From NCBI RefSeq assembly GCF_000521785.1, contig NZ_JALZ01000029.1:1-35467 (forward strand): a DNA stretch of 35,467 nucleotides, given 5' to 3'. The first letter of the stretch is position 1, and every line of letters begins with the position of its first letter. Below the pieces are notes generated by a model, which was given only the letters and a program-made list of their open reading frames with translations, ran no database searches and was not told where the DNA came from. Below, in pieces: positions 6,477 through 20,468 of this stretch. The DNA comes from Roseivivax halodurans JCM 10272. GTDB taxonomy: Bacteria; Pseudomonadota; Alphaproteobacteria; Rhodobacterales; Rhodobacteraceae. A program made the position numbers and the translations under genes.

Positions 6477-7658
6477 TCAAAGCCCTTCCGCAAGACGCCG
6501 AACCGCATCCCCCAGATCGAGAGGCCGCTTCTCGTCTCCTCTCTGCAGCATGACCTGGCCGGCCTCCGCCTCCCGCTTGCCGATTACCATCTCCGCCGGG
6601 ATGAGCCGCTCACGCGCCATCACGATCCGCCGCGACAGGCTTTCGCTCTCGGCAAAGAGCGCCGGCCTCAGCCCGGCCGCGCGAAGCGCGTCCATCGCCG
6701 CCCGCGCGGGCCCGAGCTGCGCGTCCGCGATGGGCAGCACCGCCACCTGGTCGGGCGCGAGCCAGAAGGGCAGGCGGCCTCGGTGGTGCTCGAGCAGGAT
6801 CCCGATGAAGCGGCCCATCGACCCGAGGACCGCGTGGTGCAGCATCACCGGCACCTCGCGCGCGCCGCTCTCGGCGATGTAGCTCGCGTCCAGGCGCGAC
6901 GGCAGGACCATGTCGAGCTGGATGGTGCCGCATTGCCAGGACCGGCCCTGCAGATCGCGTAGCGCGAACTCGAGCTTCGGGCCGTAGAAGGCGCCCTCGC
7001 CGGGCAGGAGATCGGGCTCGAGCCCGGCCGCGCGCGCCGCCCCGAGCAGCTGCGCCTCTGCCGCATCCCAGTCCTCCTCGGAGCCCGCCCGTTTCTCGGG
7101 GCGCAGGCTGAGCGCCACGTCGAAGTCCGGAAAGCCGAGATCGGCGTAGACCTCCTTCAGCAGGCCCACGAAGCGCGCCACCTCGGGCTCGATCTGCGCC
7201 GGCCGGCAGATGACATGCGCGTCGTCCTGCTCGAAGCCGCGCGAGCGCATCAGCCCGTGCATCGATCCCGAAGGCTCGTCGCGGTGGCAGATCCCGAACT
7301 CGGAGTAGCGCGCCGGCAGGTCGCGCCAGGAGCGGTGGCCCGCGTTGAAGATCTGCAGGTGGCAGGGGCAGCTCATCGGCTTCAGGGCCAGGTCGCGCCC
7401 CTCGGGTCGGGGCACCGCGAACATGTGCTCGCCGAACTTCTCCCAGTGGCCGGACTTCTCCCAGAGGTCTTGGGGCAGGAGCTGCGGGCTGCGCACCTCC
7501 TCGTAGCCGAGCGCGCGCATCTTGCCGCGGATGTAGTCCTCGAGGGCGCGGTAGATGCGCCAGCCGGCCGGGTGCCAGTAGATCATCCCCGGCGCGTTCT
7601 CCTCCATGTGGTAGAGGTCGAGACGCCTGGCCAGCATGCGGTGGTCTTCGTGTTCCAT
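6477..7658 (-). CDS. thrS: Threonyl-tRNA synthetase lacking TGS and editing domains, 393 aa
   Basis: Charges tRNA-Thr with threonine. The protein begins directly with the class II catalytic core (MEHEDHRMLARRLDLYHMEE, then WHPAGWRIYRALEDYIR) and is about 250 residues shorter than the usual 640-residue ThrRS: the TGS and N2 editing domains are absent, as in known editing-less ThrRS forms. The zinc ligands are in place: C97 in KPMSCPCH, H148 in DDAHVIC, and the third in VMLHHAVLGSMGRFIGIL, which overlaps motif 3. The anticodon-binding domain is present at the C-terminus. AAGGA lies upstream of the chosen ATG. Expression is probably controlled by the threonine attenuator just upstream. Loss of editing would permit serine mischarging unless a separate factor corrects it. 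It could be a second ThrRS giving inhibitor resistance. Confidence 0.93.
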   Translation of the reverse strand: MEHEDHRMLARRLDLYHMEENAPGMIYWHPAGWRIYRALEDYIRGKMRALGYEEVRSPQLLPQDLWEKSGHWEKFGEHMFAVPRPEGRDLALKPMSCPCHLQIFNAGHRSWRDLPARYSEFGICHRDEPSGSMHGLMRSRGFEQDDAHVICRPAQIEPEVARFVGLLKEVYADLGFPDFDVALSLRPEKRAGSEEDWDAAEAQLLGAARAAGLEPDLLPGEGAFYGPKLEFALRDLQGRSWQCGTIQLDMVLPSRLDASYIAESGAREVPVMLHHAVLGSMGRFIGILLEHHRGRLPFWLAPDQVAVLPIADAQLGPARAAMDALRAAGLRPALFAESESLSRRIVMARERLIPAEMVIGKREAEAGQVMLQRGDEKRPLDLGDAVRRLAEGL

Positions 7659-7700
7659 ATCGGTGTCCTTGTCGGATGGAGACAGCCGGGACCCGCATGG

Positions 7701-7735
7701 CAAAACAAAACCCCGCGCGGATGCCCGGCGGGGTT
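7701..7735 (-). terminator. Attenuator terminator of thrS leader
   Basis: On the minus strand AACCCCGC (7735-7728) pairs perfectly with GCGGGGTT (7716-7709), followed by a T-rich run TTTTGTTTTG at 7710-7701: an intrinsic terminator 43 bases before the thrS start. The upstream arm can instead pair with GGCGGGTT inside the end of the leader peptide gene, giving a mutually exclusive antiterminator. That is the classical amino-acid attenuation layout. Confidence 0.85.
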
Positions 7736-9937: not shown

Positions 9938-9965
9938 TAACGAGATGAATGTCGAGGGGGCTGAC

Positions 9966-10430
9966 ATGACCGAGAACGCGGCACGCATCGCCGACAACCG
10001 CCGGGCCCGCTTCGACTACCACATCGAGGACGATCTCGAGGCCGGCATCATGCTGACCGGGTCCGAGGTGAAGGCGCTCCGCCTTGGCGGTGTGAACATC
10101 GCCGACAGCTACGCCGCGGTCGAGAACGGCGAGCTCTGGCTCGTGAACGGGTTCATCCCGCGCTACGAGCAGGCGGCCGCGTTCGGTGGCCATGAGGAGC
10201 GGCAGCGACGCAAGCTGCTGGTCTGCAGACGTGAGCTCGCCCGGCTGTGGAATGCCACCCAGCGCCAGGGCATGACCATCGTGCCGCTTTCGCTCTACTT
10301 CAACGAGCGCGGTCGGGCGAAGCTGAAGATCGGCATCGCCAAGGGCAAGAACAAGGCCGACAAGCGCGCCACCGAGGCGAAGCGCGACTGGGGCCGCGAG
10401 AAGCAGCGCCTGCTGAAGCAGGCAGGTTGA
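9966..10430 (+). CDS. smpB: SsrA-binding protein SmpB
   Basis: Partner of tmRNA in trans-translation, binding the tRNA-like domain and the ribosomal A site. Of normal length (154 aa), with the family blocks in order: [67 protein letters not shown], and the basic tail [20 protein letters not shown]. It differs from typical SmpB at usually conserved places ([16 protein letters not shown] in place of the common [31 protein letters not shown] in place of YF..GR.KVE.AL.KGK), so it looks like a diverged accessory copy. Three bases separate it from the ImmA-like gene, which suggests one transcript. I chose the ATG after GAGGGGGC. Confidence 0.93.
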
Positions 10431-19686: not shown

Positions 19687-19723
19687 TTTTCGCATTGACG
19701 GTGGACACGGGGTTGGCTAAGCT
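19687..19723 (+). promoter_or_regulatory. Strong promoter with TTTTCGCA at its upstream edge
   Basis: TTGACG (19695-19700), a 17-base spacer and TAAGCT (19718-19723) form the best -35/-10 pair in the window. TTTTCGCA (19687-19694) ends exactly where the -35 starts, within a run of six T. A transcript would start near 19730 and run through the structured leader and the tRNA-like element to the PTH2 gene. Confidence 0.65.
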
Positions 19724-19729
19724 GTTTGG

Positions 19730-19902
19730 GCATCAAGAGAGGACGTGTCCTCGCCAACCTGCCGACCCGGCGAAGGTGGCTCCCTCCCCGGAGGAGATGC
19801 GGGCAAGAAGGCCGCACCCCCATTCGGCCGCCAACAATCGGGTTCATTCTCGAGGCGCTTGCCTCGATCCCGAATTCAGTCGCGGCCATGGCCACGGCAT
19901 AC
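19730..19902 (+). ncRNA. Structured untranslated leader upstream of tRNA-like element
   Basis: Predicted RNA rich in short hairpins: GAGGA/TCCTC with loop CGTG (near 19738), GCCG/CGGC near 19759, CTCC/GGAG near 19780, GGCCG/CGGCC near 19810, and TCGAGGC/GCCTCGA with a GCTT tetraloop near 19850. GCATC near 19731 can pair with GATGC near 19795 and enclose the first three. No convincing reading frame with its own ribosome-binding site is present. It may be a 5' extension removed from the tRNA-like RNA, a regulatory leader, or part of one larger RNA. Confidence 0.4.
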
Positions 19903-19975
19903 GGGTGCGGTCTTGGGAACGGCAGGGGGCCCTAACCTCCACGCCAGGCGGGTTCGAACCCCGTGGCACTCTCCA
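19903..19975 (+). tRNA. Degenerate tRNA-like element with encoded CCA
   Basis: The 3' half is a clean tRNA T arm: GCGGG-TTCGAAC-CCCGT (19948-19964), then GGCACTC, discriminator T and CCA (19973-19975). GGGTGCG at 19903 pairs with six of the seven bases of the 3' acceptor strand. A 3-base D stem (GTC/GGC) and a 4-base anticodon stem (GGGG/CTCC) can be drawn, total 73 nt. The anticodon register is ambiguous: loop CCCTAAC gives CTA (amber-reading), the alternative loop gives CCT; neither has T at position 33. U73 and the missing G3:U70 pair argue against tmRNA. It could be a decayed tRNA, a mobile-element tRNA, a tRNA mimic, or a tRNA 3' end left by integration. Confidence 0.45.
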
Positions 19976-20009
19976 TATTCCGGTGCGCCGGAGGCCCGAA
20001 GGAAAGACG

Positions 20010-20027
20010 ATGACGCGCTTCCAGTAG
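20010..20027 (+). CDS. Five-codon minigene (MTRFQ, TAG) in frame with PTH2
   Basis: ATG at 20010 follows a strong GAAGGAAAG ribosome-binding site, encodes M-T-R-F-Q and stops at TAG 20025-20027. The same frame stays open beyond the TAG into the PTH2 coding region. Either this is a leader minigene, or the TAG is an amber codon inside a longer PTH2 N-terminus (nonsense mutation or read-through). The hairpin CCGG-TGCG-CCGG lies between the CCA and this ribosome-binding site. Confidence 0.45.
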   Translation: MTRFQ

Positions 20028-20060
20028 ATCCCTGACGAACAGGCTGCCGAGGACGGGACC

Positions 20061-20468
20061 TTGCGTCTCTACGCCGTCCTGCGAGGCGACCTGATCATGT
20101 CGGAAGGCAAGTCCAACGCTCAGGCGGGACATGCCTATGTCGATGCGCTTCTCCTTTCGCTGACCGATCCAGATCCCGAGATCCGTGCGCGTGCCGAGGC
20201 CTATGCCGCCTTGCGGCCGGGCACGAAGATCTGCCTCGATGGCGGCGGTCACGCCCGGCTCGAGCGCCTCGCCGATCGGTTCGAGGCAACCGGCATTCCC
20301 TGTGCTCGGATCGTCGACCAGGGCCATGTCGAGCCGCCGCATTTCGACGGCAGCCCGGTCCTGACCGCCCTCGGCGTCGGGCCTTTCCTGAAATCGGACA
20401 CGCCGCGCGCGCTGCGCCGGCTCTCGATGTGGCGCGGTGGCGCCCGCGGGAGGTGCGCCATGAGCTGA
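20061..20468 (+). CDS. PTH2-family peptidyl-tRNA hydrolase, 135 aa
   Basis: Cleaves peptidyl-tRNA that has dropped off ribosomes, releasing tRNA. The archaeal/eukaryotic-type PTH2 fold is recognisable: LRLYAVLRGDLIMSEGKSNA then QAGHAYVDALL (the DL.M..GK..AQ..HA helix), PGTKICLDGGGHARLERLAD, FEATGIPCARIVDQGHVEPP, and SPVLTALGVGPFLKSD. Bacterial chromosomes normally rely on the unrelated Pth, so a PTH2 is an accessory gene. The TTG at 20061 is preceded by GAGGACG and is the likely start if the TAG at 20025 terminates; otherwise translation would begin at ATG 20010. The arginine-rich C-terminal tail may help contact RNA. Located directly downstream of the tRNA-like element. Confidence 0.82.
   Translation: MRLYAVLRGDLIMSEGKSNAQAGHAYVDALLLSLTDPDPEIRARAEAYAALRPGTKICLDGGGHARLERLADRFEATGIPCARIVDQGHVEPPHFDGSPVLTALGVGPFLKSDTPRALRRLSMWRGGARGRCAMS

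Follow-up and report, generated by a model that had tools for sequence, protein, structure and literature searches.

The stretch of DNA analysed here, referred to as the window, comprises 35,467 nucleotides of Roseivivax halodurans JCM 10272 and is contig C29 of a 149-contig genome. It contains a gene for a peptidyl-tRNA hydrolase of the PTH2 family, whose reading frame is interrupted by an in-frame TAG after five codons and is preceded by a tRNA-like element and by a leader matching the SAM-I/IV riboswitch family (SAM, S-adenosylmethionine). We propose, with a probability of about 0.84, that a private tRNA, either a suppressor or a quadruplet decoder, gates PTH2, and that in the window this gate would be placed under the SAM-I/IV leader. 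The proposal is drawn from features visible in the sequences, that is, the anatomy of the locus, its conservation, the lack of an alternative start in most relatives, and the co-variation of the blocking codon with the anticodon.

The interruption is shared by almost the entire clade of the window PTH2. In 60 of the 62 clade loci a stop codon or a +1 frame break is situated shortly after the start codon. By the classes assigned by hand, the break is an in-frame UAG in 46 loci and an in-frame UGA in three, PTH2 is in the +1 frame in eleven, and an ordinary start is found only in the remaining two, Variovorax (L007) and L033. The UAG mostly occurs within nine codons of the start (at codon 24 in L105), and four loci (L113, L115, L120, L127) have two UAGs each. 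The PTH2 cores are conserved in the interrupted loci from plasmids, phages, isolates and metagenomes, and in all 45 UAG loci tested the PTH2 frame is closed by TAA or TGA, in L134 after only 79 residues. Outside the clade, all 19 PTH2 genes have an ordinary start. Short open reading frames (ORFs) upstream of PTH2 are listed by the script in five of these 19 loci (L041, L135, L136, L140, L143) and in L033; these are chance ORFs with no ribosome-binding match, and an own start codon is present at or near the core in all of them. In the interval from the stop to the first strand of the fold, 46 of 61 clade loci have no ATG, GTG or TTG; GTG or TTG only is seen in ten, including the window (TTG), and ATG in five, L007 and L033 among them. 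Since most relatives have no start before the first strand, the short ORF is likely to form the beginning of PTH2 rather than a regulator in its own right, the window itself not being one of the 46.

The anticodon of the co-encoded tRNA follows the blocking codon. A tRNA with the CTA anticodon was found in the fetched stretch (flanks mostly 3 kb, 1.5 kb in 11 phage loci among the 19 outside the clade) of 28 of the 46 UAG loci, in each case on the same strand as PTH2, versus none of the 21 own-start loci (Fisher test, 5e-7). One more CTA tRNA is encoded elsewhere in phage Phosso and five elsewhere in other records, yielding 34 of 46, or 36 of 46 if the tRNA-like elements of the window and of Defluviimonas are included. 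Each of the three UGA loci is accompanied by a TCA tRNA on its record, about 4 kb away in two cases and far off in the third, phage Atu_ph07; on the tree the UGA class arose at least twice, each time with a UCA tRNA. Variovorax, with its normal start, has no CTA, TCA or TTA anticodon among 48 tRNAs on four fetched stretches, the exception expected if the gate and the key were lost together. Odd anticodon loops are present in 11 of the 35 triplet suppressor tRNAs (CTA, TCA), more commonly than in other tRNAs. In L113 (2866-3020) the CTA tRNA resides within the open frame of PTH2, in frame, flanked by two TAG codons.

The sequence-only reading, made from the letters of the window, had offered two explanations of the TAG. 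Suppression by the adjacent tRNA-like RNA is strongly supported, at the level of sequence comparison, by the co-variation of stop type and anticodon across relatives. The other one, that the minigene senses Pth activity through drop-off of peptidyl-tRNA, received no direct support, given the prevalence of clade members with no start after the stop (the window apart), and a sensing role may exist on top of the gate. As for the homologues, named there as a check, nearly all in the clade are interrupted; the case given there as counter-evidence, a sense codon with no tRNA-like element, does occur in Variovorax, and L033 also has its own start.

In the +1 loci, the breaks can be read as the quadruplets UAGC, UGAC, UAAC, UAGG and CAUU, and in nine of the eleven loci bases 34-37 of the co-encoded tRNA pair with all four letters. 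GCUA is found with UAGC (L008, L010, L011, L021), GUCA with UGAC (L012), AUUA with UAAC via an A34.C pair (L019), CCUA with UAGG (L026, the sole tRNA matched in its 41-kb contig), and AAUG with CAUU in two Bosea loci (L006, L009), where the quadruplet starts one codon before the stop. All nine tested tRNAs pair at positions 34-37, eight exactly and one via A34.C, compared with a mean of 2.8 for shuffled partners (P = 5e-5), in a test that allowed two candidate quadruplets per site and contained some closely related loci. All nine also have odd anticodon loops (a 31-39 mismatch in seven, no U at position 33 in two), versus 45 of 362 other tRNAs (Fisher test, 2e-8). We lean towards a description in terms of private codons: the replicon-borne tRNA and the blocked PTH2 probably co-evolve as lock and key, the lock having changed among UAG, UGA and the five natural quadruplets, with a matching tRNA for each kind.

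Several further observations concern these and other loci. The element TCTTGCGNACGG is situated immediately after the stop and is conserved at the DNA level among Rhizobium, Pseudomonas and Vibrio plasmids (L005, L008, L010, L011, L012, L013, L021); it is a possible candidate for a 3' stimulator of the +1 shift. Upstream of PTH2 on the Vibrio plasmids (L013, positions 2625-2775, and L035) there are two tandem, near-identical tRNA-like elements, neither of which is called by ARAGORN. They have GCTA, one base off in the cloverleaf drawn here, and the two copies fold modestly better than shuffled sequences (z -1.7 and -1.8). In three phage contigs ARAGORN predicts tRNAs with four-base anticodons near PTH2: GGAA (L022, 1944-2020), GTAA (L032, 3352-3429) and GCAA (L040, 3402-3480), for which the expected codons are UUCC, UUAC and UUGC, respectively.

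In the window the order of the features is leader, tRNA-like element, short ORF, PTH2, all on the forward strand. Directly upstream of the leader there is a promoter-like motif TTGACG-N17-TAAGCT (19695-19723, read by eye), and its counterpart in Defluviimonas salinarum (L018) is TTGACG-N17-TAATCT. The leader (19725-19848) matches the SAM-I/IV family RF01725 with 47.3 bits against the gathering threshold of 41.1, the sole match in the host genome. By this score it is a candidate riboswitch of the SAM-I/IV type, with putative SAM binding and switching; its folding energy is not better than that of shuffles. The tRNA-like element (19903-19975) is 73 nt long and has an encoded TCCA end. With the arms placed by hand, it folds into a cloverleaf with a short, 3-bp D arm and 19 of 20 pairs formed, and CTA (19932-19934) is read in its six-nucleotide anticodon loop CCCTAA (19930-19935). 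A tmRNA was considered and rejected, as neither Rfam nor ARAGORN calls one. The start codon, five codons with the ATG included, and the in-frame TAG (20010-20027), with AAGGA upstream, form the 5' end of PTH2: the sequence is ATG-ACG-CGC-TTC-CAG-TAG, with the ATG at 20010 and the TAG at 20025-20027, and the frame is that of PTH2. The structured leader of the sequence-only reading matches a known family, and its five-codon minigene ending in TAG and followed by PTH2 in the same frame, open to 20468, is confirmed. The tRNA-like RNA with an encoded CCA and a CTA anticodon holds as regards its length, end and loop triplet, but not as a tRNA called by programs. Similarly, the promoter described as strong is present as a motif, also similar in L018, but not listed by the consensus scan.

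The closest relative, L018, has a PTH2 with 62% identity to that of the window and the same arrangement: a SAM-I/IV leader (RF01725, 45.7 bits), a tRNA-like element, ATG-AAA-CGC-ATC-CAG-TAG, and the in-frame PTH2. Its cloverleaf, also with hand-placed arms, has 20 of 20 pairs. A comparison of the pairs in the two cloverleaves, which rests on two sequences and hand-placed arms, yields five changed on both sides, four changed on one side, ten identical and one broken in the window. The anticodon loop CCCTAA is identical in both genomes while the stems differ; both this loop and CAGTAGATCCCTGACG are retained against the co-varying stems. Positions 19808-19819 of the window, in the SAM leader, are complementary over 12 bp to positions 19903-19914, the 5' strand of the tRNA-like element. 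A SAM-controlled helix hiding this strand was considered and rejected, as the 12 bp are absent in L018 and 6% of shuffles have a complement as long (P about 0.06); the comparison of the window with L018 revealed no conserved switching helix between the leader and the tRNA-like element.

The protein read through the TAG (20010-20468, stop TGA at 20466-20468) matches the PTH2 profile PF01981 with E = 5e-12 and 46.5 bits, the cut-off being 23. Its AlphaFold model has pLDDT of 90.6, and the best match in PDB is an archaeal PTH2 (2zv3, TM 0.87 by target length, E = 6e-8). Hence, by both the profile and the modelled fold it is a PTH2 protein with predicted peptidyl-tRNA hydrolase activity. In the model, the first strand is formed by residues 12-18, downstream of the TAG, whereas the earliest in-frame ATG is residue 24, so a start at this ATG would be predicted to lose the strand. 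Three records annotate PTH2 from an internal ATG. Annotators thus seem to miss the true start of PTH2, and, judging from the model of the window protein, the product of an internal ATG would lack the first strand.

We envisage the following mechanism. Ribosomes would start at the ATG at 20010, meet the UAG at codon 6, and normally stop and release a pentapeptide. If the tRNA-like element, transcribed from the DNA just upstream, is processed and charged, it would read the UAG by its CUA, producing full-length PTH2. In other giant plasmids and phages, the gene would be blocked by a UAG, a UGA or a four-base frame break, the replicon usually supplying the matching tRNA. Through the SAM-I/IV leader, S-adenosylmethionine may govern the tRNA, PTH2 or both, as a second condition. 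PTH2 would then appear only once the translation parts of the element itself work, in proportion to the misreading of the chosen stop. PTH2 clears peptidyl-tRNA, and two purposes can be suggested. Suppressor tRNAs cause readthrough and stalled ribosomes, and PTH2 scaled to the suppressor activity could match the clean-up to the damage; or else PTH2 could be held back until the element's own tRNAs exist. If this is true, PTH2 production would report whether the element's own translation system works.

Several observations weigh against this scheme. The loci are related, and their counts do not represent independent events. For ten of the 46 UAG loci no CTA tRNA was found, nine of these records having been scanned with a single pattern that describes one tRNA shape and the tenth, L020, only near PTH2. 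In the window, the tRNA-like element is called neither by ARAGORN nor by the Rfam tRNA model, its anticodon loop has six nucleotides and C at position 33, and its folding energy is no better than that of shuffles (z = 0.86, for a stretch that began one base late; the L018 stretch folded alongside was misplaced). With its short D arm and six-nucleotide loop, it is not recognised as a canonical tRNA and is classed as tRNA-like only. The consensus promoter scan of the window listed no promoter, which leaves the strength of the promoter a weak point. For the four-base versions, ordinary Ser(GCU), Arg(CCU) and Asn tRNAs commonly have A37, and so some of the four-base match should also be seen with any triplet tRNA cognate in the +1 frame; the Bosea AAU tRNAs, having G37, fall outside this explanation. 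Rhizobium (L005) has a UAGC site, and among the 57 tRNAs read there none is dedicated, only ordinary ones such as Ser(GCU) being present. Further, a TAG codon occurs again inside PTH2 in three contigs (L104, L105, L117), and in 10 of 44 phage loci the coding density increases by over 8 points when TAG is read as sense. Finally, TTG at 20061 could start the window PTH2 with no gate and with the first strand kept.

The last point is the basis of the main rival for the window, in which the stop is incidental: translation of PTH2 would begin at TTG 20061, and the short ORF would act as an upstream ORF, tuning or sensing Pth activity via peptidyl-tRNA drop-off. This TTG lies in the PTH2 frame where the first strand begins, with a possible Shine-Dalgarno sequence GAGG eight bases upstream, and the ten clade members with GTG or TTG only in the same interval, as well as the five with ATG (two of them the own-start L007 and L033), could be treated similarly. 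However, the 46 loci with no start codon there could not, and the eleven +1 loci require a frameshift; moreover, the stop type tracks the anticodon, and an upstream ORF needs no matching tRNA. We consider this explanation improbable. Still less probable is a reassignment of TAG over entire phage genomes (code 15), PTH2 being one of many genes with a sense TAG. CTA suppressor tRNAs with TAG recoding are known in jumbo phages, according to the available part of the respective study (PMC13037316), and the additional TAGs in three PTH2 contigs together with the density gains in 10 of 44 loci indicate that some phages may recode more widely. On the other hand, with TAG as sense the 44 UAG phage loci pooled gain 4.4 points of coding density against 5.0 for the TGA control; for the window the gains are 3.4 points with TAG and 4.7 with TGA. 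A greedy ORF picker, which also takes spurious ORFs, gives TAG as the terminator of 11 of 45 ORFs of at least 80 aa in the window and of 42 of 393 such ORFs in the phage loci. Hence TAG does not behave as a sense codon of many genes in the window or in the regions, the comparison being that of regions and not whole genomes, and code 15 cannot account for the UGA and +1 versions.

Another possibility applies to the +1 loci only, namely, a prfB-like programmed frameshift caused by slow termination, with no special part played by the neighbouring tRNA. In prfB, a stop codon is followed by C, and the protein continues in the +1 frame. The +1 loci are arranged similarly: C comes after the stop (G in L026), with PTH2 shifted to the +1 frame. 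In addition, the downstream element TCTTGCGNACGG is conserved in seven loci, Rhizobium has the site with no dedicated tRNA, and several of the tRNA types concerned usually have A37. Yet all nine tested tRNAs match the quadruplets and have odd loops, and in Bosea the paired quadruplet CAUU begins one codon before the stop, with AAUG in the tRNA; TAG was not found as the premature stop of prfB in what is available of the prfB study. A shift of this type is absent from the window, where PTH2 is in frame 0, and present in eleven relatives. For those loci we regard this explanation as doubtful, but worth keeping in mind. An early stop in a gene usually means decay, and a pseudogene or a sequencing error might be suspected. 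The break recurs, however, in 60 of 62 loci, whether these come from plasmids, phages, isolates or metagenomes, the PTH2 cores are conserved and the fold is confident, so the chance of this is negligible. The gate by a private tRNA is retained as the preferred reading.

The proposed gate has partial parallels among known systems. In selenocysteine and pyrrolysine decoding, the stop codon in a small number of genes is read by a dedicated tRNA; here, unlike there, the identity of the stop varies between relatives and includes four-base codons. The bar minigenes of phage lambda are two-codon ORFs such as ATG-TTG-TAG and are linked with peptidyl-tRNA hydrolase, whereas the present minigene belongs to the hydrolase gene, as its 5' end. 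The fold and conserved residues are those of the PTH2 family (PF01981), from which the present proteins differ in the start region, apparently interrupted by a recoding gate. As in prfB, encoding RF2, there is an early in-frame stop, the full protein would be made via recoding only, and feedback is possible; the differences are that in-frame reading of UAG prevails here, that the +1 forms are usually accompanied by a matching tRNA, and that prfB, as far as the study mentioned above goes, does not use TAG. Quadruplet-decoding tRNAs (frameshift suppressors and engineered qtRNAs) have the same four-base pairing and altered anticodon loops, but the ones described in the accessible sources are suppressor mutants or engineered, and the present ones would be natural and tied to one gene. 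The available text of a study of quadruplets (PMC9094753) expects quadruplet decoding in nature to be less frequent than other non-canonical codes. If correct, our prediction would provide a conserved natural case of dedicated four-base decoding, used as a device, and of a private tRNA acting as the gate of a gene, and the lock-and-key pairs could yield ready-made suppressor and quadruplet tRNAs.

In phages with suppressor tRNAs (code 15 and others), a mobile element likewise carries a CUA or UCA tRNA that reads a stop as sense. In the accessible parts of the corresponding papers, either recoding is genome-wide (PMC13037316) or no target is identified (XacN1, Atu_ph07), whereas here a single gene is blocked early and the anticodon tracks the block. 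For two CUA tRNAs of XacN1, the authors of the paper looked downstream of amber stops and, in the portion available, identified no target; the Atu_ph07 paper, in a similarly partial text, reports a UCA suppressor and names no target gene. PTH2 is a candidate target for such tRNAs, and in Atu_ph07 the UCA tRNA matches the UGA in PTH2. XacN1 is not a solved case: its PTH2 falls in the uninterrupted group and has a normal start, and therefore the gate does not explain its CUA tRNAs. In the open-licence literature, covered by title and abstract and without preprints and most subscription journals, nothing was found that describes a PTH2 gene with an early break and its cognate tRNA, or quadruplet tRNAs occurring naturally on megaplasmids.

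The unit is apparently rare and mobile. A DNA similarity search for the unit in plasmids produced just a 47-base piece within PTH2, and the same search in 61 genomes, its own included, yielded its own genome and one short match. At the protein level, 292 genomes of the order gave the own genome and one weak match, the profile search, covering 398 genomes from the phylum and 394 from the family, gave the own genome only, and the first viral scan with the single protein gave no relative. The relatives were collected by alignment-based profile searches (four genome loci and 65 viral loci, 19 of them from the first such scan) and by tblastn, with hits to PTH2 relatives on 15 plasmids (0.7-1.3 Mb), ten of which were taken in, including one of four from Variovorax and two of four from Vibrio. 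The matched phage records formed two overlapping sets of 19 and 45, of which 13 were taken in. Near-duplicates (L014, L027, L035, L037, L125, L141), the uncertain L131, and L144-L148, in which no usable PTH2 start region was recognised, were dropped before counting. L131 might be read as a UAGA quadruplet, but it has no ribosome-binding site and a long branch, and it was left uncertain. Five short rows (L039, L104, L105, L117, L134) were left out of the tree; L129, also not in the tree, was classed by eye and does not enter the start-codon and frame-end tests. The starts of L105, L113, L114 (as GTG), L115, L120 and L127 were read by eye.

Two other translation genes are present in the same stretch as the unit, those of SmpB (9960-10427) and of a threonyl-tRNA synthetase with the core and anticodon domains only (6480-7703); a search with the latter, aimed at placing the replicon of the window, was uninformative. 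Elsewhere in the host genome (G000), contig C21 (L193) contains 32 tRNA genes in about 11 kb, which cover most amino acids and include no CTA tRNA. Clusters of tRNA genes are also found on the Rhizobium and Variovorax megaplasmids.
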